Shown piece by piece: positions 3,291 to 63,888 of a stretch of 64,000 bases of DNA. The stretch comes from a bacterium (GTDB lineage: Bacteria > Bacillota > Clostridia > Lachnospirales > Lachnospiraceae). Position numbers and translations under genes: made by a program. Location of the stretch: assembly GCA_023664305.1 (NCBI GenBank), contig JAMPFT010000002.1, positions 146,440 through 210,439 on the forward strand. The letters run 5' to 3'. How positions within the stretch are numbered: the stretch's first letter is position 1; each line of letters begins with the position of its first letter. The notes below the pieces were generated by a model. The model was not told the origin of the DNA, ran no database searches, and saw only the letters and a list, made by a program, of their open reading frames with translations.

Positions 3291-4145
3291 ATGGAAGGGA
3301 AAAAACCGATGAACCGAAGACGCGTAAGACCCGGGGACTGGATTATCTTTCTTCTGCTGCTGGCGCTGGGAATTGTCTGGGTCTATCCCTTTATCTGGAT
3401 GATCTCCGGTTCCTTTAAGACGAATCTGGAAATCCTGAATAAGGGGCTGAACCTGATTCCGGACGCGCTGAATTTTGCCGCCTATGGGCGGGCCTGGAAG
3501 GACGCGCACTTTGATACTTATTTTCTGAACTCGGTTATCACGACCTCCGCCACGGTTCTGATCGTAGTGATCCGCTGCGCTCTGGCGGGGTATGTGCTGG
3601 CGATGTATGATTTCCGCGGTAAAAAGCTGATTATGATGGTGCTTTTGGTGACCTTCTTCGTGCCGACCGGTACGACGCTGATCCCGACCGTATCCCTCAG
3701 CAACTCGCTGGGGCTGCTGAATACGCGGACGGGACTGATTCTGGCGTTAGCCGGAGGGGGACAGGTCGCCTCGATTTTCCTGTACAAGGGCTTCTTTGAG
3801 CAGACGCCCCGGGAGCTGATGGAGGCGGCGCAGATCGACGGCGCGGGCTTCCTGCAGGTGTTCCTGTCCGTGATGCTGCCGCTGACGGGGCCGGTTACGG
3901 CGACGACCGTTGTCATGACCTTTATGGGAGCCTGGAATAATTTCATGCTGCCGCTGGTATTTACCTTTTCCAATACCGGCCTGAGAACGCTTCCGGTAGG
4001 GATGATGGTCTTTTCCAGAGGCGATATGGTGGACTATGCCGGGCAGTGCGCCGCGGCGATCCTGTCGATCGCGCCGATTGTCGTGCTGTATGTATTCTGC
4101 CAGAAATACTTTGTGTCCGGTATCGCGGGCGCGATCAAGTCCTGA
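3291..4145 (+). CDS. Sugar ABC transporter permease (MalG-type)
   Basis: Second CUT1 permease subunit, 284 residues with six predicted membrane segments. The EAA loop reads RELMEAAQIDGAGFLQVF. It would form the channel heterodimer with the preceding permease. A second ATG lies at 3309 (MNRRRV). Followed after 24 bp by the HAD phosphatase gene in the same orientation. Confidence 0.9.
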   Translation: MEGKKPMNRRRVRPGDWIIFLLLLALGIVWVYPFIWMISGSFKTNLEILNKGLNLIPDALNFAAYGRAWKDAHFDTYFLNSVITTSATVLIVVIRCALAGYVLAMYDFRGKKLIMMVLLVTFFVPTGTTLIPTVSLSNSLGLLNTRTGLILALAGGGQVASIFLYKGFFEQTPRELMEAAQIDGAGFLQVFLSVMLPLTGPVTATTVVMTFMGAWNNFMLPLVFTFSNTGLRTLPVGMMVFSRGDMVDYAGQCAAAILSIAPIVVLYVFCQKYFVSGIAGAIKS

Positions 4146-4169
4146 GGGGGCGCGACAGGGAGGAAGAAT

Positions 4170-5024
4170 ATGGAAAAACTGGTTTACAACCATGAGATTA
4201 AGATGATCGTGACGGACCTGGACGGCACGCTATTGTACAATGAGTCGCAGTTGACGGAGCGGACGCGGAAGATTCTGGAGCTGGCGGATGTGATGGGGGT
4301 TCTTGTGGTCGTGGCTACGGGACGGAGCGTCTGCCAGCTGCCGGAGGCGGTTCTGGATACGAAGGGAATCCGTTTTATCATCACATCCAACGGGGCGGTG
4401 GCCATTGATCTTCGGGAGAACAGGAAGATCATGCGGATGATGATCAGTCATGAAAACGCGCTGAGGACGCTGGATATCATCAACGGGATCGAGCTTCCCC
4501 ATCGCTTCGAAATCAATCTGGACGATCATATTTTCTCGGAAAAATATTATCTGGAGCACATCGATGAAATGGAGCCGGAGCTGGCCCGGAAGGGCTGGTA
4601 CGATCCTCATCTCGTCCCCATCGACGACGCCAGAGAATTTCTGGAGGACGGACGTAAGGAGGTAGAAAAATTCAATATCTTTTTTCGGACGGTGGAGGAG
4701 CGGAATCAGGGAATCGAGATGCTGAAGCAATACCCGTTTCTGGCAATCTCCTATTCGTTGGAGAAGAATATCGAGGTCAACGACTGCAGGGCGGACAAGG
4801 GAAGCGCCATAGAGCTTCTGGCGAAATCACTGAATATCCGGAAGGAGAATATCATCGGTTTCGGGGACGGTACGAATGATATTTCCCTGTTAAGCGCCGC
4901 AGGGCTTGCCGTGGCTACGGACAATGCGGCGAAGGAGGTCAAGGAAATCGCCGACTATGTGACGCTGAGCAACAGACAGGACGGCGTGGCCGAGGTGCTG
5001 GAGAGGCTGATAACGACAGACTGA
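4170..5024 (+). CDS. Cof-type HAD hydrolase
   Basis: HAD-superfamily phosphatase of the IIB (Cof) type, 284 residues. The nucleophile motif DLDGTLLYNE lies near residue 16-25 and the C-terminal Mg2+-binding motif is GFGDGTNDISLLSAAG. The cap domain lies between. These enzymes typically act on sugar phosphates or phosphorylated cofactors. Its position at the end of a sugar-import operon suggests a sugar phosphate, but this is an inference. GGGAGGAAG precedes the ATG. Confidence 0.85.
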   Translation: MEKLVYNHEIKMIVTDLDGTLLYNESQLTERTRKILELADVMGVLVVVATGRSVCQLPEAVLDTKGIRFIITSNGAVAIDLRENRKIMRMMISHENALRTLDIINGIELPHRFEINLDDHIFSEKYYLEHIDEMEPELARKGWYDPHLVPIDDAREFLEDGRKEVEKFNIFFRTVEERNQGIEMLKQYPFLAISYSLEKNIEVNDCRADKGSAIELLAKSLNIRKENIIGFGDGTNDISLLSAAGLAVATDNAAKEVKEIADYVTLSNRQDGVAEVLERLITTD

Positions 5025-5083
5025 AAACCGGATCCTGCGTAAGGCCTTTGGGATGCGCAGAGAGAATCTGTGAGAAAATGCAA

Positions 5084-5134
5084 AGAGAGACTGTTGCAAA
5101 ACGGGGCGGACACGATTGTGTCTGCTCTCTTTTT
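5084..5134. terminator. Probable terminator between converging genes
   Basis: GCGGACAC (5106-5113) pairs with GTGTCTGC (5118-5125), inside an outer AGAGAG/CTCTCT pairing, followed by TTTTT on the plus strand. It lies between the HAD gene and the converging LacI gene. Confidence 0.6.
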
Positions 5135-5226
5135 GATGGGAGTCATTCCGGTTTGACGAATGTTTTGAGGTGAAAGCTTCTGCCGCCGCAATGGGGAGGA
5201 AGCCGTCAACAGCGGCAGACGTTAGT

Positions 5227-6258
5227 CTACAGGGAACGGACGGAAGCCCTCTCGTGCAGGCCGCAGTCCAGAATATATTGAGGATTTTGAGGCTTTTCGG
5301 CATGGTGGTACAGCGCCTGCGCCGCCGTGTAGCCGATCTCGTGCAGCGGCAGGGAGACGGAGGTCAAAGGCGGTATCGTATAGCTGGAGAAGGGCAGATT
5401 GCCGAAGCCGATCACGGAAAGATCCTCCGGGATCCGCAGCCCTGTCTGCGAGGCATACCGATAGACGCCGTATGCCATAATGTCATTCAGGGTGAGGATG
5501 GCAGTGGGGGGATCCGGGAGAGTCAGCAGCCTTTTTGCGTGGTACGCGCCGCTTTCCATCTCCAGATTGCCGTAGCGGACATAGTCGCTGCAGAAAGGCA
5601 GCCCTTCGTCCTCCAGAGCCGCACGGTAGCCCGCAATCTGATTGTCCGAGACCATCGTATTGGCGGGGCCGCAGATCAGGCCTATTTTCCGGTGGTTTTT
5701 CTTCAGGAGATACCGGGCGGCCGTCAGCGCGCCCTGATAATCATTGTAGGTGACATAAGGAACCTCTTTTGCGTTGTAGCAGTAGACATATACCACGGGA
5801 AGCCGAAGCTCCCGGATCAGGGGCAGAAGCTCGATATTTCGCTTGTAGATACCGATGTAAATCAGTCCGTCCACACAGGCAGAGGACAGGGCGAGAATGT
5901 TTTTGGTCAAAATATCGTTATACTGCTCCAGCAGGTAAAAATGGTCGTGAACTTTATTGTCGATACGGAGGTTATACAGGGAGATAGAGTAGCCGTGGGC
6001 TTCGCAAAAATCGTTGATGCCGTCTACGATAGCGGGGGTGTCGAATGCGGTGATATCCTCCGCGATTACGCCAAAGGTATTGGTCTGACTGGTTTTGAGG
6101 CTCTTTGCCATCTTGTTGGGAACATAATTGAGAGCCGCCACGGTATTGAGTACCCGATCTCTGGTTGCGTCGCCCACGCGGCCCGTGTGATTTAAAACAT
6201 TGGATACCGTCCCGATGGAGACGCCGGCGCTGCGGGCAATATCGTGAAGTGTCACCAT
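5227..6258 (-). CDS. LacI-family transcriptional repressor
   Basis: 343 residues. The N-terminal helix-turn-helix and hinge are canonical (VTLHDIARSAGVSIGTVSNV, then the LNY-VPN-AKSLKT region). The rest is a periplasmic-binding-protein-like ligand domain. It converges on the sugar ABC operon, whose promoter carries a CG-centred palindrome, so it most likely represses that operon until a sugar binds. Its own promoter is visible on the minus strand: TATTAT at 6291-6286 with a TTGCAC-type -35 at 6314-6309 (17-bp spacer). AGGAGG precedes the start. Confidence 0.9.
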   Translation of the reverse strand: MVTLHDIARSAGVSIGTVSNVLNHTGRVGDATRDRVLNTVAALNYVPNKMAKSLKTSQTNTFGVIAEDITAFDTPAIVDGINDFCEAHGYSISLYNLRIDNKVHDHFYLLEQYNDILTKNILALSSACVDGLIYIGIYKRNIELLPLIRELRLPVVYVYCYNAKEVPYVTYNDYQGALTAARYLLKKNHRKIGLICGPANTMVSDNQIAGYRAALEDEGLPFCSDYVRYGNLEMESGAYHAKRLLTLPDPPTAILTLNDIMAYGVYRYASQTGLRIPEDLSVIGFGNLPFSSYTIPPLTSVSLPLHEIGYTAAQALYHHAEKPQNPQYILDCGLHERASVRSL

Positions 6259-6435
6259 GCTCGTTTCCTCCTGCGCTTTTATTAGATAATATCATAAAAA
6301 GGGAAAATGTGCAATCAATACGAGAGAAAGCTTCAGCGATTGGTAACATTTTGCGGGGGATTTCGTGACAACTGTCAAAGGTTTTGGAAAAATGAGTCGA
6401 AATAAAAGGTAGCGGTATTTTGTTTGGGCATAGAT

Positions 6436-6486
6436 GACCGAATGTGTTGAGGAAGGAACTTGAGTCAACATATCCGGTCTTTTTTT
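6436..6486 (+). terminator. Intrinsic terminator / possible attenuator before the LytTR gene
   Basis: GACCG then AATGTGTTGA (6436-6450) pairs with TCAACATAT then CGGTC (6465-6479), followed by a run of eight T. No gene on the plus strand precedes it, so it ends a short transcript of unknown nature or attenuates transcription into the LytTR gene. The stretch 6315-6435 shows no coding sequence. Confidence 0.6.
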
Positions 6487-6494
6487 GGGAAAGC

Positions 6495-6676
6495 TTGGGA
6501 GTAAACTTCCAATGTCAGACCTGTCGGTCTGTCAACATAGGGCAAATATTGATTGATGTGCGCCGGAGCGCGCAAAGGGGTATAAGCTTGGAAGCAAACT
6601 TCCAAATATTGAATTGGCGCCAAAGAGGGGTGTTTACGCATCCTCTTATGAAGCGGTCAGGGGGTGTATAAGCATG
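6495..6676 (+). promoter_or_regulatory. Repeated leader: TTGGAAG palindromes and hairpin-RBS modules
   Basis: TTGGGAG-TAAA-CTTCCAA lies at 6495-6512 and TTGGAAG-CAAA-CTTCCAA at 6588-6605. CAAATATTGA occurs at 6543 and 6603, followed each time by a GC hairpin (around 6559-6573 and near GGCGCC at 6615-6620) and a GGGGTATAAGC-like or GGGGTGTTTACGC stretch. A third, diverged unit ends in GGGGGTGTATAAGC just before the ATG at 6674. The same module, in one copy, precedes the lipoprotein gene at 39049. Function unknown. Confidence 0.6.
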
Positions 6677-7390
6677 AAAATTGCAGTTTGCGACGGTGAG
6701 AAGGAAGCGTGTGCGGAATTGAGACGTCTGATCCGCAGGGAAAGATCGGATGCGGAGGTGGTATGCTTTTGCTCCGGCAGGCAGCTTTTAACGTCAAGGC
6801 AACGCTTTCCGATTGTGTTTATGGACGTCCGTATGGAGGGCGAGAGCGGGATCGAGACGGCGAAGGCGCTGCGGAGGAAGGATGAGACGGCAGTGCTGAT
6901 CTTTGTGACCGCGCTGAAGGAATATGTGTTTGAAGCCTTTGACGTGTCGGCCTTTCACTATCTGCTGAAGCCGGTGTCGGAGGACAAGTTCCGGAAGGTA
7001 TTTGCAAAGGCATGGGAAGAGGCGGTCAGGCGGGAACAAAAGAGCGGAGAACAGATCTTTTTTCGGACGAAAAGCAGAAATATTACCGTTCCAAAAGGAG
7101 ATATTCTGTATGTGGAAAGCCGGGGGCGGAAGGTGGATATCCATACCCCGCGGGAATGCGTGACGGTCTACGCCACCATGAACAGTCTGGCGGAGCAGCT
7201 GGGAAGCGGCTTTTACAGGTGTCACAGGGGATATCTTGTCAATCTGGCCCGCGTGGCGGAGTATGAGACAAACAAAATCCTGCTGGAGAACGGAGAGACC
7301 GTTTTGATGGCAAGGGAAAAGTATACGGAATTTGACAGGACTTATATAGAGTACCTGAAGAGCGAAGGCAAGGTGCGGATTATACTGTAG
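6674..7390 (+). CDS. LytTR-family response regulator (orphan)
   Basis: 238 residues from the ATG at 6674, which has GGGGGTGTATAAGC in front. The receiver domain has the acidic start (VCDGEKE), the phospho-acceptor Asp in FMDVRMEGESG and the conserved Lys in YLLKPVSED. The C-terminal half is a LytTR DNA-binding domain (FYRCHRGYLVNL is typical). No histidine kinase lies beside it, so its partner is elsewhere or it acts alone. The unusual repeated leader upstream is shared with the lipoprotein gene at 39049, which may mean co-regulation. Confidence 0.88.
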   Translation: MKIAVCDGEKEACAELRRLIRRERSDAEVVCFCSGRQLLTSRQRFPIVFMDVRMEGESGIETAKALRRKDETAVLIFVTALKEYVFEAFDVSAFHYLLKPVSEDKFRKVFAKAWEEAVRREQKSGEQIFFRTKSRNITVPKGDILYVESRGRKVDIHTPRECVTVYATMNSLAEQLGSGFYRCHRGYLVNLARVAEYETNKILLENGETVLMAREKYTEFDRTYIEYLKSEGKVRIIL

Positions 7391-7393
7391 AAG

Positions 7394-7556
7394 ATGACAG
7401 GGAAAAGGGGCGGCTGAGGCGTGGCGCAGAGAGTGACAGGAAAAGGGGCGGCTGAGGCGTGGCGCAGAGAGTGACAGGGAAAAGGAGCGGTTGAGGAGTG
7501 GCGCAGAGAGTGACAGGGAAAAGGGGCGGCTGAGGCGTGCCGTAGAGAGTGACAGA
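7394..7556. repeat. Minisatellite, ~39-bp unit, about 4 copies
   Basis: Units begin GTGACAGGGAAAAGG and contain GCGGCTGAGGCGTGGCGCAGAG, with small differences between copies (GGAGCGGTTGAGGAG in the third). The array fills the gap after the LytTR gene. The open frames across it on both strands are low-complexity by-products of the repeat. Confidence 0.85.
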
Positions 7557-7594
7557 AGGAACGGGCTGCAAAAGCATGCCGTAAGAGCAGACGG

Positions 7595-7623
7595 GGGCAG
7601 GCGGGAGTTTTCCCGGCCTGCCC
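7595..7623. terminator. GC-rich hairpin between converging genes
   Basis: GGGGCAGGC-GGGA and TCCCG-GCCTGCCCC form a stem around TTT. It lies directly after the minisatellite and before the nitroreductase stop codon, and probably ends transcription in one or both directions. There is no long T-run. Confidence 0.45.
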
Positions 7624-7634
7624 CGCCAAAATCC

Positions 7635-8165
7635 TTACAGACAGGTGACCTGCGCGGCAGCGTCATAGGTGTGAGGTTCCTTTGTCACAGCCTTATGGCC
7701 GAAAGCAATGGCGATCTTGTATTCAAAACGGGGAGGGAGCTTCAGGGCGTCGGCGAAGTATTCCTTTTTTTCGCCGTTGATCGCGTCCAGGATACAGCCG
7801 ATAATCAGGCTGCCCAGACCCAGCTCCTGCGCTGCGAGGGCCATGTTTTCCACGGCGATACCGGCGTCCAGGGTTCCCCATTTGAACGTGGCGTCGGCGC
7901 TGATGATGACTACGACGGGCGCTTCATAGTAAAAATTGTGAGGCGGTTCGGAAATTCCGCGCAGACGGTTTTTCTCCTCCTCCAGCTCCTGCAGGACGGG
8001 ATGATCTCCTTTTAACACGGTGAAGTGAATTTCCTGCTTGTTGGCGGCGGTGGGAGCCTGAAGCCCTGCGCTGATTAAGGTGTTAAGCTCTGTCTCCGTC
8101 AGCGCTTCCGGGGTATAACCTCTTGTAGAACTGCGTTCTCTGATGCTTTCAAGGGTGCTGCTCAT
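7635..8165 (-). CDS. Nitroreductase-family protein
   Basis: 176 residues with the nitroreductase fold: the N-terminal RERSSTRGYTPEAL helix start (FMN phosphate contact Arg/Ser-Thr-Arg), APTAANKQ, and the C-terminal AQELGLGSLIIG segment. These are flavin-dependent NAD(P)H oxidoreductases; the natural substrate cannot be told. GGAGGAAACCACAAC precedes the ATG. A minus-strand promoter is visible at 8255-8227. Confidence 0.88.
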   Translation of the reverse strand: MSSTLESIRERSSTRGYTPEALTETELNTLISAGLQAPTAANKQEIHFTVLKGDHPVLQELEEEKNRLRGISEPPHNFYYEAPVVVIISADATFKWGTLDAGIAVENMALAAQELGLGSLIIGCILDAINGEKKEYFADALKLPPRFEYKIAIAFGHKAVTKEPHTYDAAAQVTCL

Positions 8166-8226
8166 GTTGTGGTTTCCTCCTGATTCCTGATTTTTTCAGC
8201 TGTCTCAGCTGCTTTTGCATATTGTT

Positions 8227-8255
8227 ATTATAACGCCGGAGGGGAAAAAGAACAA
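8227..8255 (-). promoter_or_regulatory. Promoter of the nitroreductase gene
   Basis: On the minus strand, TTGTTC (8255-8250) and a perfect TATAAT (8232-8227) are separated by 17 bp, about 60 bp before the start codon. Palindromic element copy 3 begins right upstream of it at 8272. Confidence 0.65.
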
Positions 8256-8271
8256 GGGAAACTGTTGGTTC

Positions 8272-8396
8272 GGCCGGGCTTAGGTTTTCTGCGGACACGT
8301 TTGCACTCGGGTCGGCACATAGCGGACGCTAAGCTCGAAAGGACCTCGCTAAGCGCCGATGTGCCTTTACGGTCCGCCGAAAACCTAAGCCCGGCC
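8272..8396. repeat. Palindromic element copy 3 with private arms
   Basis: Arms 8272-8296 and 8372-8396 pair over 25 bp with one mismatch. The outer part (GGCCGGGCTTAGGTTTTC on the left) is unlike the outer arms of copies 1 and 6, while the core is nearly identical to theirs. Confidence 0.8.
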
Positions 8397-8557
8397 AAAG
8401 TGACACGTTTGTACACAAAGACGGCACATAGCGGACGCTAAGCTCGAAAGGACCTCGCCAAGCGCCGATATGCCTTTACGGTCCGCCGAAAACCTAAGTC
8501 CGGCCAAGGTGACACGTTTGTACACAAAGTCGGCACATAGCGGACGTATAGAGGATT
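8397..8557. repeat. Tandem partial copies 4 and 5 of the palindromic element
   Basis: The block from GGTCCGCCGAAAACC (8371) recurs at 8480, a period of 109 bp. The internal copies carry GTTTGTACACAAAG in place of GTTTGCACTCGGG. The last copy stops after GCGGACG near 8547. The sequence up to 8650 has no gene. Confidence 0.75.
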
Positions 8558-8674
8558 GGTGTCGGCCGGAACGGATTTGGTGACATTTTGCAAAAGTCGC
8601 CGGGCAGTCCGGCCGATTTACAGTTTAGAAAGAGCTGACCGGCATATCGGACAGAGCGGAAGGAGACGGTAGAA

Positions 8675-9304
8675 ATGAGAGTTACGACAGGAATGTTAAA
8701 CAGGAACAACGGGATGATCGGAAGCCGGAAATCCCTGTTAAGCTATGTACAGCAAAACAAGACGGGAGGAGCCGAGAGGCTTGCGGCCATGGGAACGGCA
8801 AGGACTTCCGGCGCGCTTCAGCGGACGCAGAAGGCCGGTTATGAGAAGCTAAAAAGCACGGCAGACCGGCTGATAGACGGCGCGGATCAGCTGGCCCGCA
8901 GGGCGGACGGGGATGCGGATTGCACCCGGGAGGCAAAAAGCTTTGTGGAGGCGTATAATCAGGCCATGGATACGCTGGGAAGTGAAACCGATGTCCTGAA
9001 CCGTTATTATCATCAGATGATGAAACAGACGTTTTCGGACAATCAGGCCCAGCTGGCGGAGCTGGGAATTACCAGAAATACGGCAGGAAAGCTTGTGCTG
9101 GATTCGGAAAAGCTTGCGGCGGCGGACACGGAGAAGGTGAAGAAGCTTTTGGGCGCAGAGGGAGATTTTGTCAAAAGGGTGAGTTATGTGGCGTCCCGGG
9201 CGGCGGACAATGCCAAGGTAAACATACAGAATCTGAGTACCGCGTACAACGCCAGAGGAAATGTGACAAACTCCTATCTGAGCAGATACAATCTTTTGGG
9301 CTAA
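8675..9304 (+). CDS. FliD-like (flagellar hook-associated protein 2 C-terminal-like) protein
   Basis: 209 residues, no signal peptide or membrane segment. The C-terminal half (LAELGITRNTAGKLVLDSEK followed by KVKKLLGAEGDFVKRV) looks like the C-terminal region of the flagellar filament cap FliD, and the end is helical and Asn/Ser-rich as in hook-associated proteins. There is no typical FliD N-terminus and no flagellar gene nearby. It could be an exported or cytoplasmic relative with a different job. The next gene, 126 bp downstream, is probably in the same unit. GGAAGGAGACGG precedes the ATG. Confidence 0.55.
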   Translation: MRVTTGMLNRNNGMIGSRKSLLSYVQQNKTGGAERLAAMGTARTSGALQRTQKAGYEKLKSTADRLIDGADQLARRADGDADCTREAKSFVEAYNQAMDTLGSETDVLNRYYHQMMKQTFSDNQAQLAELGITRNTAGKLVLDSEKLAAADTEKVKKLLGAEGDFVKRVSYVASRAADNAKVNIQNLSTAYNARGNVTNSYLSRYNLLG

Positions 9305-9429
9305 TGTGAGAAGAATTGTAATGAGAGCAGCGCGGCCTGCCGATATAAAGAAAAAGGTTCGGCAGCCAAGGGACTCCAAAAGCGATGGAAAGCGGTCTCG
9401 GAATCGGACCGCGCGGAAAGGAAACGGAT

Positions 9430-10083
9430 ATGCAGATTGGAATAAACGGACGCCTTGCGGGGGCGGACTATCAGCGGACGGCACAGCAACGCAGGGAGGA
9501 CTCCGCGGTGGGGAGTTGGATCGCCTCCTTAGCGGAGGCGGCAAAGAGCGGGAAAACATCGGAAGCCGCAGGCGGGGAGGCATCCCAATTGCTGTCGGCC
9601 ACGGAGAGCGCGGAAAAGCCGGAAGAAGCAAAAACCTCGGGAGAGCGTTCGGAGGCGGCCAAAATTTTTGAGGCGGCCTCCGCGGGCAGGGAAAATCCGC
9701 TGGCTAATCTGAGAACGGCGGGAAAAGTCCCTTACGCGTACCTGGCGAAGGACGGAATCATCGAATATAACGGCGTGGTCTTTGTCTGTGATGAGAAAAC
9801 CAACAGTATCTGTCTGGGAGACATGACGGATCCGAAGGAAGTGATTACCGTGGCGCTGTCCGGCGGAGGTCATCTGAAGGTGAACCGAAGCAATATCGGG
9901 GATCTTTCCAAAGCGGTAGGGATGTTTTCCCCGGAGGACCTGAATCGGATTATGCGCGCCATCGCTCAGGATACCAGGATTCAGTCCATGGAGAAGGAGA
10001 TCGAGGATCTGGAGAGCGAGGTCGGCGGAAATATGAGCGCTGAGAACGCGGCGGAGACGGAGGAGAAGAAGGAAGCTGTCTGA
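9430..10083 (+). CDS. Conserved hypothetical protein (partner of FliD-like gene)
   Basis: 217 residues from the ATG at 9430, chosen because GGAAAGGAAACGG precedes it; an ATG at 9385 is also in frame. The first ~95 residues are Ala/Ser/Glu-rich and likely disordered. A compact domain follows (about residues 95-185, with a YNGVVFVCDEKTNSICLGD strand-rich segment), then an acidic helical tail (EKEIEDLESEVGG). No known family was recognised. Position suggests a role with the FliD-like protein. Confidence 0.6.
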   Translation: MQIGINGRLAGADYQRTAQQRREDSAVGSWIASLAEAAKSGKTSEAAGGEASQLLSATESAEKPEEAKTSGERSEAAKIFEAASAGRENPLANLRTAGKVPYAYLAKDGIIEYNGVVFVCDEKTNSICLGDMTDPKEVITVALSGGGHLKVNRSNIGDLSKAVGMFSPEDLNRIMRAIAQDTRIQSMEKEIEDLESEVGGNMSAENAAETEEKKEAV

Positions 10084-10091
10084 GGTTGTTT

Positions 10092-10144
10092 TCTGCAGCA
10101 GGGATATTTTAACGTGGCTCTTTTTGAAATATCCCTGTTGCAGG
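10092..10144. terminator. Inverted repeat between converging genes
   Basis: CTGCAGCAGGGATATTTT (10092-10109) pairs with GAAATATCCCTGTTGCAG (10127-10144). The loop contains CTTTTT. It probably ends transcription of the two converging units. Confidence 0.55.
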
Positions 10145-10154
10145 GTGCTTTAAT

Positions 10155-10769
10155 CTATTTGCTGTTTTTGGCGCTCATAATAGCCTGATATAGCGACCTA
10201 TACTCGCTGTCTGACATGCTTTTCTGCGGCACACAGATTCTTTTATCTGTGAATGATATTTCAATCACTTTCTTTTTGGAAAAGAACAGGGCAATACCGA
10301 GCAAAATGCAAAGGATTGCCAGGACGTTCATGGTTCCGTTCATCCATCCCGGCAGGCTGACCGATTGATCGATCCATTTCAGATAATCGTTTGCTTTATC
10401 CACCCATTCGGTGAGTTTATCGATTACCGTCTTAACGACTTCCAGTGCGGAACCTGCAATGACAAACAGAAGGCATTTTTTGAAAGAGCGTTTTGCCAGA
10501 TACCCCATCCCGATAAAATTCTTAATCTGGGCGCTGTCGCTGCTGCCATGGGATTTTACAAATTCCTTGTCTCTTAAGTACCAAAAGTCCCCGGTCAACA
10601 GGAGAGTTTCCCTGTTGACCGTTATCGTGTAGTGACGCCCGGCATTTTCTGTAAGCTGATACAGCAGCTGATTGCCAGAAGATAAGCCTGTCTCATCGAT
10701 TGCCATGCCGCATTGGGGACAGAATGCGGCTCTGGCAGCTACTGTTTTTCCACATTTACTGCACTGCAT
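10155..10769 (-). CDS. Zinc-ribbon membrane protein
   Basis: 204 residues from an ATG at 10769 that comes one base after the stop of the upstream gene, so translation is probably coupled. The N-terminus is a zinc ribbon (CSKCGKTVAARAAFCPQCG). Two hydrophobic segments follow (near residues 95-112 and 150-170), then a short cytoplasmic tail. The role is unknown; such proteins are frequent in Firmicutes. A longer in-frame start at 10880 would lie inside the upstream gene and is not preferred. Confidence 0.75.
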   Translation of the reverse strand: MQCSKCGKTVAARAAFCPQCGMAIDETGLSSGNQLLYQLTENAGRHYTITVNRETLLLTGDFWYLRDKEFVKSHGSSDSAQIKNFIGMGYLAKRSFKKCLLFVIAGSALEVVKTVIDKLTEWVDKANDYLKWIDQSVSLPGWMNGTMNVLAILCILLGIALFFSKKKVIEISFTDKRICVPQKSMSDSEYRSLYQAIMSAKNSK

Positions 10770-10770
10770 A

Positions 10771-11391
10771 TCAGTTTTGTCCTTTGAGATGATTTTTTGC
10801 CCGGCGGATCTGCTTCTCAAAATCCTGTGATTCTGCAAGACCGTAGATGGCGGCGTCAAATTGAATGCAGCCTCCGGCATACTCGATTGAGAAAAGTGTA
10901 GTCCTGCCTTTTATGTATGAAACGATCAGCAAAATTGCCGAAATAATGAGCGCTGAAATAGGAGCGGCTGTATAGTCTATGTCCCCTACAACAAATATTA
11001 CCAATGAAACGATAAACAATAAAACGGCAAGTATCAGTTTCCATAATGGGTTGCTATAGATAAAGCCGGTGCCTGTAATATCTTCCAAATCAATTGTTTT
11101 TTGCATATTAAATCGCTGAATTTTGCCGCTGTTGGTATCGATCATATTGCCGCGCAGATATACGCGTTTATCGGAAAGAAAGGCAATACACCTTTTTATT
11201 GATTTAGCAGTCAGATAGCTGCCGATATATCCGTTTCCGAGAGAGCCTATGTAGTTTTCGTCCGGTTCAACGAATATCTTTGTATAGTTACTGTCATTTC
11301 CGACGGATACATCTTTTTCGACCATAGCCCCGCAGTGAGGACATACATTGCTGGAATCTTCTATTTGTTTTCCGCATTTTTCACACAACAT
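10771..11391 (-). CDS. Zinc-ribbon protein with two membrane segments
   Basis: 206 residues starting with a zinc ribbon (MLCEKCGKQIEDSSNVCPHCG). A beta-rich PH-like region follows (KSIKRCIAFLSDKRVYLRGN), then two adjacent membrane helices near residues 115-160. GGAGAGAAAAGAAA precedes the ATG. It shares build with the next gene and overlaps it in operon arrangement. The PH-like part suggests membrane association, but the function is unknown. Confidence 0.75.
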   Translation of the reverse strand: MLCEKCGKQIEDSSNVCPHCGAMVEKDVSVGNDSNYTKIFVEPDENYIGSLGNGYIGSYLTAKSIKRCIAFLSDKRVYLRGNMIDTNSGKIQRFNMQKTIDLEDITGTGFIYSNPLWKLILAVLLFIVSLVIFVVGDIDYTAAPISALIISAILLIVSYIKGRTTLFSIEYAGGCIQFDAAIYGLAESQDFEKQIRRAKNHLKGQN

Positions 11392-11647
11392 TTTCTTTTC
11401 TCTCCTATCGTTTTTAATCTCTTAATCCTGTAGTTCGCATAGACTCTTTTGCCGTCTTTAACGGCTTTGCCACGCAGTAGACAAAAGCCTTCCGCATGTC
11501 ATTTGCTGATCCCCTTTCTTTTTCTTATAGTTTACGCCCCCCCGTATTTATGTCGATGAAAAAATGATAATTTATTTCGGTGTGATCGGCAGATGGCGCA
11601 GGAAATCGATAAATATGGTGTCAGGGAGAAGGAAAAGAATAATTATG

Positions 11648-12226
11648 TTATGGAGTGAGTCTGTCGTATTGAGTTATTATTTCTCCGGTAGTCAGGCAGA
11701 GCTTTTCTTTTTTGAGCAGGGTATAGCGGGGGTGTCCGTGTGTATAGTCTTTATCTGATTTTGGGAAAAAGGTGCGGCAGAACAGGGTGTTTTCCCCGGA
11801 GCGCTGTGCCAGAAACAAATAGACGGGAGTACCGCGAAAATCATTTTCAAGAAGATAGTCCGCTTTGATAGCTGAAAAAGGGTTGGCTTTTGGATTATAG
11901 CGAAAAATGAGTTTATTGCTGTCCAGAAAATTTTCCAACTCTGCGAGCGGTAAGAGACGAGGTTCCATTTCGTAAAAGAAATCACTTTGCTTTGCTGTAG
12001 AAAATGTCAGACGGCCATCCAGAATTTCCTGCAAAATGTCAGCCCGCTTTCCGGTTTGGAAGCGGGCATTATCCCGCAATTTATGTAGTCCTGCAAGATG
12101 GTGAAAATCGGTATTGCTGAATGATACGGTGAAATCTAATGTTTTTCCTTTGCGTCCAATTACCATACGATACTGGTAAGGAATCAGCCGCTTAAAATTT
12201 TGTGCGCATTGTAATAGTAAATCCAT
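11648..12226 (-). CDS. PBECR4-type nuclease-domain protein
   Basis: 192 residues, soluble. The pattern VIGRKGKTLDFTVSF, then DFHHLAGLHKL, a mid-protein IFRYNPKANPF-SAIKADYLLE, and a C-terminal FFPKSDKDYTHGHPRYTLL-EK matches my memory of the PBECR4 domain (phage/Barnase-EndoU-ColicinE5/D-RelE-like nuclease). Such domains are predicted RNases or DNases found in mobile elements and toxins. The gene is more AT-rich than its neighbours. It starts 20 bp after a terminator hairpin that ends a structured RNA on the same strand, so it seems to depend on read-through, the arrangement of type III toxin-antitoxin loci. That reading is a hypothesis. Confidence 0.7.
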   Translation of the reverse strand: MDLLLQCAQNFKRLIPYQYRMVIGRKGKTLDFTVSFSNTDFHHLAGLHKLRDNARFQTGKRADILQEILDGRLTFSTAKQSDFFYEMEPRLLPLAELENFLDSNKLIFRYNPKANPFSAIKADYLLENDFRGTPVYLFLAQRSGENTLFCRTFFPKSDKDYTHGHPRYTLLKKEKLCLTTGEIITQYDRLTP

Positions 12227-12246
12227 GCTTTTTCCTTTTCTGTATA

Positions 12247-12275
12247 AAAAATCCCTGCTCTAAAACAGGGATTTT
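12247..12275 (-). terminator. Terminator of the structured RNA
   Basis: AAAAATCCCTG pairs with CAGGGATTTTT around a TTTTAGAG loop and is followed by T residues on the minus strand. It lies between the RNA (12276-12420) and the nuclease gene start at 12226. Its stem is symmetrical enough to work in both directions. Confidence 0.8.
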
Positions 12276-12420
12276 TCGTGCATTTTCTTTCGGTTTTATC
12301 AGCCTACGCCGGTTTGAGGTTTCATTGCACAACCCCTCCCGAAAGCTCCGTAAGGCAATGCATACCGGCACACGCCCTTACTTCAACGCTTTGACAGACA
12401 CACGTCGTTGCCTGCCTTAT
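12250..12420 (-). ncRNA. Structured small RNA, class not established
   Basis: An RNA of about 170-175 nt is predicted between a consensus promoter and a terminator. Helices that can be read off (minus strand): TAAGGCA 12419-12413 with TGCCTTA 12357-12351; CAACG 12410-12406 with CGTTG 12388-12384; CTTTCGG 12345-12339 with CCGAAAG 12293-12287; GAGGGGTT 12338-12331 with AACCTC 12321-12316. Two more pairings would be pseudoknots: GCCGGT 12369-12364 with ACCGGC 12313-12308, and GTGCA 12330-12326 (a hairpin loop) with TGCAC 12282-12278. Size, promoter strength and complexity fit abundant Clostridia RNAs such as the raiA motif; 6S RNA is a less likely alternative. It could also be the RNA partner of the nuclease downstream. 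Confidence 0.7.
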
Positions 12421-12426
12421 GATATT

Positions 12427-12455
12427 ATTATATACAGACAAGAAAAGTATGTCAA
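12427..12455 (-). promoter_or_regulatory. Perfect consensus sigma-A promoter of the small RNA
   Basis: TTGACA (12455-12450), a 17-bp spacer and TATAAT (12432-12427). Both hexamers and the spacing match the consensus exactly, which predicts a very strong, constitutive promoter. Transcription should begin near 12420. Confidence 0.85.
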
Positions 12456-12478
12456 TCTGTTTTGGAAAGTTTTCCCGC

Positions 12479-33230: not shown

Positions 33231-33245
33231 AGCAAAAGAGAAAAT

Positions 33246-33381
33246 TCTTCGGGGTTGGGTGCGATTCCCTACTGGCGGTAAAGTCCGCGACCCGGAGCGG
33301 AGGAAGGGCGTATGCGCCCGGCTCCGCGAAGGCTGACTCGGTGAAAGTCCGGGACCAACAGTAAAGTCTGGATGAGAGAAG
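33246..33381 (+). promoter_or_regulatory. FMN riboswitch (RFN element)
   Basis: The hallmarks of the RFN aptamer are present: GGGTGCGATTCCCTACTGGCGG near the start, AAAGTCCGCGACCC, the variable stem with GCGTATGCGCCC, GGCTGACTCGGTGAAAGTCCG and the closing GGATGAGAGAAG. It senses flavin mononucleotide and controls the riboflavin transporter gene downstream, through the terminator at 33463. Confidence 0.95.
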
Positions 33382-33462
33382 AAAAGGCGGCTCGTATGTT
33401 GTTTTTCCGCGCGTGCGGAGAGCAGGGCATACGAAAAGTCCGCATGAGTATGCAGACCAGAC

Positions 33463-63653: not shown

Positions 63654-63739
63654 GGAGAGATATCGAAGTGGTCATAACGAGGCGGTCTTGAAAACCGTTT
63701 GTCCGCAAGGGCGCGTGGGTTCGAATCCCACTCTCTCCG
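63654..63739 (+). tRNA. tRNA-Ser (anticodon TGA)
   Basis: Acceptor GGAGAGA/TCTCTCC, anticodon loop CTTGAAA (TGA), a long variable arm typical of serine tRNAs, and the T-loop GGTTCGAATCC. The sequence ends with G and C, so CCA is not encoded. Confidence 0.95.
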
Positions 63740-63799: not shown

Positions 63800-63888
63800 G
63801 GAGAAGTACCCAAGAGGCCGAAGGGACACCCCTGGAAAGGGTGCAGGTCGTTAATAGCGGCGCGAGGGTTCAAATCCCTCCTTCTCCG
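63800..63888 (+). tRNA. tRNA-Ser (anticodon GGA)
   Basis: Acceptor GGAGAAG/CTTCTCC, anticodon loop CCTGGAAAG (GGA), long variable arm, T-loop GGTTCAAATCC. Second serine tRNA in tandem, about 60 bp after the first, sharing its promoter. Confidence 0.95.

Follow-up and report, generated by a model that had tools for sequence, protein, structure and literature searches.

A drum RNA and a PBECR4 gene as a probable mobile module resembling type III toxin-antitoxin systems

Introduction

Does the structured RNA that lies directly ahead of a putative nuclease gene in a Lachnospiraceae genome control that gene, or do the two merely happen to adjoin? The locus belongs to a stretch of 64,000 nucleotides of contig JAMPFT010000002.1 (assembly GCA_023664305.1), hereafter the window. 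An earlier note, made from the letters of the window without database searches, offered two readings: a known abundant RNA of Clostridia, with raiA as first guess, that only happens to lie there, or an RNA that controls the nuclease as a repeat-less form of type III toxin-antitoxin system. According to passages of PMC5086642, a single promoter serves the RNA antitoxin, the Rho-independent terminator and the toxin gene of a type III locus, and tandem repeats are a key feature.

Results

Organisation of the window locus

Read from the sequence alone, the locus runs promoter, RNA, terminator and gene on the same strand (Table 1). When both strands of the 64-kb window were scanned, a perfect TTGACA-N17-TATAAT was found a single time, at the minus-strand site where the earlier note had placed it. 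The transcript predicted from this promoter agrees in length with the RNA of about 170-175 nt proposed there, and it folds at -61.5 kcal/mol (z = -4.1), a value matched by 0 of 200 shuffles. A pattern scan reports the hairpin of the intrinsic terminator on the plus strand only, because the minus-strand stem absorbs the Ts. The gap between RNA and gene, previously put at 20 bp and measured here at 19 nt, is too short to house a promoter, in line with the earlier statement that the gene has none of its own. Among 60 homologous loci examined, the perfect pair of -35 and -10 hexamers recurs in 34, and 42 pass a crude hairpin-plus-T test for a terminator between the RNA and the gene.

Table 1. Features of the locus (window positions, position 1 being the first letter of the window)
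Feature	Position	Strand	Basis or remark
-35 element TTGACA	12455-12450	minus	sequence inspection and promoter pattern scan
-10 element TATAAT	12432-12427	minus	17-nt spacer from TTGACA
Predicted drum transcript, about 174 nt, proposed RNA antitoxin	12246..12419	minus	5' end inferred from promoter
5' hairpin GGCAGGC/GTCTGTC	12393..12416	minus	outside the Rfam drum model
drum RNA, Rfam RF02958 match	12275..12391	minus	cmscan, 91.4 bits
Pseudoknot 1, GCCGGT (12369-12364) with ACCGGC (12313-12308)	12308..12369	minus	
Pseudoknot or long-range helix 2, GTGCA (12330-12326) with TGCAC (12282-12278)	12278..12330	minus	
Intrinsic terminator (hairpin and T-run), between RNA and gene	12246..12273	minus	
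19-nt leader, A/G-rich ribosome-binding-like stretch	12227..12245	minus	
PBECR4 (PF18813) gene, 192 aa, proposed nuclease toxin	11648..12226, ATG at 12226	minus	

The RNA is a drum RNA with two covarying pseudoknots

The RNA of the window matches the Rfam family drum over the whole model (positions 1-112 of 112; gathering cut-off 43 bits), and this identification displaces raiA. Other candidates, including 6S, were likewise rejected, drum alone matching there at the gathering threshold.

The structure was assessed in an alignment of 30 RNAs (29 distinct rows) taken from the 39 drum hits described below; seven weak, cut or near-identical hits were left out, as were L012 and L054. As named, the structure comprises 38 pairs in six helices, all six of which covary, and 35 of the 38 pairs change on both sides. 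Across the alignment 84.8% of cells pair, compared to 65.8% in shuffles and 34-40% when the sequences are slid; the weakest helix, a small 3' hairpin, has 58.1% of its cells paired. Both pseudoknots drawn in the earlier note have their arms in place and withstood this comparison: GCCGGT/ACCGGC is 93.1% paired in the 30 homologues, with changes on both sides in 6/6 pairs, and GTGCA/TGCAC is 82.1% paired, with such changes in 5/5 pairs. The 5' hairpin, which precedes the Rfam model, covaries as well (both-side changes in 6/7 pairs among homologues). A repeat search of window 12246-12460 found no direct repeats, in line with the reported absence of the tandem repeats of type III antitoxin RNAs.

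The downstream gene encodes a PBECR4 protein

The 192-residue product matches the PF18813 profile with 146.3 bits against a cut-off of 27, over positions 2-187 of 188, which settles the family assignment in favour of the PBECR4 type named before. Searches of NCBIfam (E <= 0.1) and PADLOC returned no family for this protein, and chance-level matches for three of six other PBECR4 proteins. In PHROGs there was a single weak match, to phrog_3446, a family of unknown function (E 1e-4). Among PDB sequences, neither the window protein nor profile A6 found a match; the profile of a second PBECR4 clade (clade B, below) gave two chance-level matches.

The AF2 model of the protein has a pLDDT of 93.5, and a Foldseek search with it returned no match in the PDB at E <= 0.001, so that the Pfam label is the basis for the putative nuclease fold and active site; it is likewise the Pfam family name that suggests nuclease activity. 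Weak matches of the predicted model include PfiT, RelE, YoeB/ParE and HigB2 at E 0.2-2.2, and these RelE-superfamily toxins would be weakly in keeping with that label. No ToxN-family title stands among the best 50 of the 386 weak fold matches.

drum reportedly was described in an earlier published paper, which lies outside the literature searched. Within that literature no paper linking drum or PBECR4 to toxin-antitoxin systems and none naming PBECR4 was found, and the passages that mention RF02958 state no function for drum.

Every intact PBECR4 gene of the protein-first set is accompanied by drum

Linkage was counted from both partners, and the count that starts from the protein is the fairer test. 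A clade A protein profile, used alone, fetched 65 PBECR4 loci on 8 viral and 57 genome contigs, whose record titles include Lachnospiraceae, other Clostridia, Treponema, Lactobacillus, Bombilactobacillus, Phascolarctobacterium and Mitsuokella among others; some of the genome contigs come from the same genomes as the RNA-first sets. At 59 of these loci the RNA model R1 places drum no more than 118 nt upstream of the gene, and it finds drum on 7 of the 8 viral contigs. At one further locus (L119) drum lies 1.5 kb upstream, and the intervening sequence looks inserted, by eye; another (L103) begins at the contig edge. Only L141, L152, L156 and L158 have no drum. The 60 RNA hits include near-copies (55 are distinct), and 10 have the same sequence as RNAs from which R1 was built, with 42 intact loci outside that set; the low scores are those of L161 (23 bits), L105 (32.5), L100 (34.8) and L159 (40.9).

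Genes were called intact if a single frame spanned at least model positions 10 to 149 of 194 and a start codon stood close by, a lenient rule that admitted L151, whose gene is cut by the contig end. By this rule 51 of 51 intact genes have drum at the locus (the one at 1.5 kb included) and no intact gene among the 65 loci lacks it, compared to 9 of 13 evaluable broken genes (Fisher p = 0.0011). The four drum-less genes are all broken: one has no N-terminus, one a stop at codon 4, one a lost start codon and a disrupted C-terminus, and in one the match ends at model position 64. By eye, L152 and L156 retain the promoter and the 5' end of the RNA, and L158 retains its 3' end. The distance from model end to start codon is 42-65 nt in 43 of the 51 intact loci.

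Divergence of the RNA tracks that of the toxin (r = 0.835 over 43 of the 51 intact pairs, a value reached in 0 of 5000 permutations). This co-divergence fits a partnership, although shared descent alone could also produce it. Searches of viral contigs with a drum DNA pattern, and of phage records with drum by blastn, found nothing; these searches were too strict, since 7 of the 8 viral contigs reached through the protein do carry drum.

Solitary and tandem drum RNAs

The search that started from drum took in 146 related genomes, with a match in 12, and 391 genomes of the class, with a match in 19; the window's genome is counted in both sets. At 21 of the 39 hits a PBECR4 HMM, built from the same loci, matches directly downstream on the same strand; by reading, the gene is intact at 14 of these hits, and at the other 7 it is incomplete or has no normal start. 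The remaining hits include two with a remnant of the PBECR4 N-terminus after drum, by eye (L005, L058), two additional drums in tandem with a drum-PBECR4 locus (L006, L016) and two at contig ends (L012, L069). The earlier note had held that an RNA found elsewhere without the nuclease would speak against control, and this objection was half borne out: 12 of the 39 hits look solitary, two of them under the Rfam cut-off.

Five of the solitary drums (L063, L065-L068) are copies of one similar element, which is phage-linked where the flank is long enough, and those of genomes G161 and G381 resemble one another. One solitary drum lies right after an endolysin-like gene (L187 8024-8131), and another has a head-protein gene as well as a group II intron close by (L188 6671-6778). 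Solitary drums of this type are possible decoy antitoxins on prophages.

Contig C15 of genome G068 (L006, L014, L016) carries three consecutive drum genes, each with its own promoter. The PBECR4 gene follows the first drum only, so that the two extra copies lie downstream of the toxin gene, an arrangement that suits a trans-acting RNA.

The pair moves as a unit

Flanking genes were grouped by any shared protein, using intact genome loci with enough flank. The 41 upstream flanks fall into 38 groups and the 40 downstream flanks into 33, which indicates that little beyond the drum-PBECR4 pair is conserved and that its contexts are mostly unrelated. A sibling genome, G050, has the neighbouring pectinesterase's best relative (96% identical) and keeps window 4001-10076 in the same order, and the drum-PBECR4 module is missing from it: coming from one side, the alignment breaks off at window 12470 and picks up again at 10076, and the counterpart site holds other genes, with no drum in the 12 kb read. 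Sequence comparison shows that drum and PBECR4 move together. The variable site spans window 10076-12470 and, in the sibling, L197 1113-3642; the window carries zinc-ribbon genes and the drum-PBECR4 module there, and the sibling, by eye, a 344-aa ORF and a short acetyltransferase-like ORF.

In plasmid records, tblastn found PBECR4 on 21 (20 from Enterococcus and 1 from Streptococcus, several of them near-copies). Six of the 21 loci were examined for drum, and all six have it just upstream with a score over the Rfam cut-off; at the plasmid locus L185 the protein match is confined to the first quarter. Possible defence genes were seen near the pair on plasmids, namely an AAA ATPase beside it in the Enterococcus plasmids L181 and L186, a TIR-domain protein in L186 and an AbiH-family protein in L182. 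Phage records gave no tblastn match to the window PBECR4; one clade B protein matched three phage records and no plasmid record.

The window's genome holds a second pair (L001/L002), with drum at G000:C11:42026-42167 and PBECR4 at G000:C11:41408-41962. The two toxins are 36-37% identical. A CptIN-family toxin is also present in this genome, at G000:C33.

A second PBECR4 clade is preceded by a different RNA

A tree was built from 48 PBECR4 proteins. The window's clade (support 86/91) has 16 members there, of which 15 have drum, and the sole exception, L080, is missing its N-terminus. Elsewhere in the same half of the tree, low-scoring drum-like RNAs lie where drum would be expected (L088 24.8, L089 16.6, L040 14.4, L091 12.1 and L090 11.1 bits), L032 offers just 46 nt of upstream sequence, and the divergent members L043, L093 and L095 have no drum detectable by R1. 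The other half (23 rows) has no drum.

Clade B was analysed as a core of 17 members, 15 of them scanned by motif, plus four viral loci (examples are L018, L020, L022, L023, L083 and L163-L166). All 19 scanned loci have two tandem units of about 50 nt upstream, by a motif drawn from the loci on which it was scored; a repeat finder gave two units in 3/3 loci. Each unit is a hairpin of the type GTTG-NNNN-CAAC whose loop pairs with the segment behind it to form a pseudoknot, the tandem units are closed by a covarying outer helix and, by eye, the terminator and PBECR4 gene follow. The alignment used 18 of the 19 RNAs, L082 being omitted because its repeats align poorly; pairing holds in 98.9% of the cells, and both-side changes occur in 19 of 26 pairs. 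Rfam returned no match at the RNA in 10 clade B loci at E <= 0.05 (two matches fell elsewhere) and none at the RNA in three more at the gathering threshold. By eye L084 resembles the clade B layout, and L039 has only 4 nt of upstream sequence. The two PBECR4 profiles match each other in hhalign at 95.4%.

Divergent PBECR4 genes at L031/L035, L033 and L092 are preceded, by eye, by what seem to be other RNA classes; L031 and L035 share a nearly identical block of about 165 nt, with flanks that differ. In 14 control genomes PBECR4 matched in one (Lactococcus lactis) and drum in none.

We incline slightly towards a broader picture, in which PBECR4 would be the toxin half of a large RNA-antitoxin superfamily that has recruited several pseudoknotted RNAs: drum, drum-like RNAs in an intermediate clade, two-unit tandem pseudoknots in the second clade and other conserved RNAs in outliers. 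The solitary drums, several of which adjoin endolysin or head genes of prophages, would then be decoys that free phages or cells from the toxin.

Comparison with known systems

Passages of PMC5086642 ascribe to ToxIN, CptIN and TenpIN the order of promoter, RNA antitoxin, Rho-independent terminator and toxin gene, a pseudoknotted RNA and a presence on both plasmids and chromosomes, all of which recur in drum-PBECR4. Their RNAs are sets of 34-50 nt repeats, whereas drum forms a single structure of about 150 nt free of repeats; unlike the drum clade, the second PBECR4 clade does carry two units of about 50 nt, the classic type III layout. The NCBIfam models for CptIN (NF047359) and TenpIN (NF047358) do not match the window PBECR4 at E <= 0.1, and they do match in related genomes. 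drum-PBECR4 thus falls outside formal type III membership on both repeats and the curated CptIN and TenpIN models. In hhalign the PBECR4 profiles reach 0.1-2.2% probability against CptN and TenpN, low figures that carry little weight against a remote link, because CptN against TenpN itself scores just 4.9%.

Another parallel in layout is AbiF-RCd22 of Clostridioides difficile (RF03085 abiF), for which passages of PMC12373285 describe, as in drum-PBECR4, a sigma-A promoter, a short ncRNA, a terminator and a toxin, and in which an Rfam ncRNA proved to be an antitoxin that binds its toxin and acts in cis and trans. The parts differ: AbiF is, according to the same passages, an Abi_2 family protein linked to Cas13 ancestry, and RCd22, which contains two abiF motifs, is unlike drum. 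AvcID is classed as type III by its authors despite its toxin being a deoxycytidylate deaminase and not a BECR-type nuclease; its RNA is AvcI, and the word 'repeats' is absent from the searched main text of PMC10511110. That text also reports no predicted terminator between RNA and gene, unlike drum-PBECR4.

Discussion

With the type III layout and the AbiF-RCd22 and AvcID precedents, our reading is that drum serves as an RNA antitoxin and masks the PBECR4 protein. Comparative evidence favours the earlier note's second alternative, an RNA that controls the nuclease in a repeat-less, type III-like form, and we put at about 0.82 the probability that drum-PBECR4 is a mobile type III-like toxin-antitoxin module with a non-repeat pseudoknotted RNA as antitoxin. 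In the proposed mechanism the strong promoter would yield much drum RNA and the terminator would let little read-through into the PBECR4 gene, so that together they keep the RNA in excess. The double-pseudoknotted RNA would bind the PBECR4 protein directly and block it, in the way that type III antitoxin RNAs bind and neutralise their toxins, usually once the toxin has processed them. Should transcription stop, as in a phage takeover, or the DNA be lost, as in plasmid loss, these putative triggers would cause the RNA to decay first, and the freed nuclease, presumably toxic, would cut RNA. Against this interpretation count the lack of tandem repeats in drum, given that passages of PMC5086642 use repeats to define type III loci, as well as the 12 solitary drums among 39 hits and the three divergent members in which R1 detects no drum.

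The solitary drums are also what coincidence or mere synteny, an abundant housekeeping RNA beside an unrelated gene, would have in its favour. This explanation is refuted by the protein-first linkage and the differing flanks, and has a negligible probability: drum lies within 118 nt of the gene in 59 of 65 protein-found loci in mostly unrelated contexts, and accompanies it at all six plasmid loci examined. The linkage in fact persists across genera, plasmids and phage-like contigs, contradicting the notion that the RNA merely happens to adjoin the gene. A lack of such linkage across genomes, another refutation proposed in the earlier note, is clearly not what was found. An RNA so placed, with a terminator at its end and a near-constant spacing to the start codon (42-65 nt in 43 of 51 intact loci), could also be a cis-acting leader, that is, a riboswitch or attenuator that tunes read-through or translation of PBECR4 without binding the protein. 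We consider this unlikely, since solitary drums have no PBECR4 gene to lead and the two extra drums of G068 lie downstream of the toxin with a promoter each; the different RNA class ahead of clade B genes would be odd for one ligand sensor, and the perfect promoter in 34 of 60 loci also speaks against it.

Tight linkage and co-divergence would suit any ribonucleoprotein, including one that acts positively, with drum guiding or activating the nuclease, and passages of PMC12373285 on AbiF, which is RNA-bound and linked to Cas13 ancestors, show that such families exist. Here the broken genes are informative. Broken genes often still have the RNA next to them (9 of 65 loci protein-first, 7 of 21 RNA-first), but an intact gene without the RNA at its locus occurs in 0 of the 65; this is the direction expected if the protein alone is harmful. 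A positive-acting complex is therefore highly improbable.

If drum-PBECR4 is indeed an RNA-inhibited toxin module, a function would be obtained at once for an orphan Rfam family, drum, and for the uncharacterised PBECR4 nuclease domain, and a type III-like family would be added to the curated CptIN and TenpIN, its drum clade using an antitoxin RNA free of repeats. It would predict addiction modules on enterococcal plasmids and perhaps a role in phage defence in gut Clostridia. Two RNA classes opposite one toxin family would show how RNA antitoxins get swapped or invented.

Other features of the window

Elsewhere in the window, Rfam identifies an FMN riboswitch at 33241-33387 (103.3 bits), and two tRNA genes lie on the plus strand at 63654-63739 and 63800-63888.
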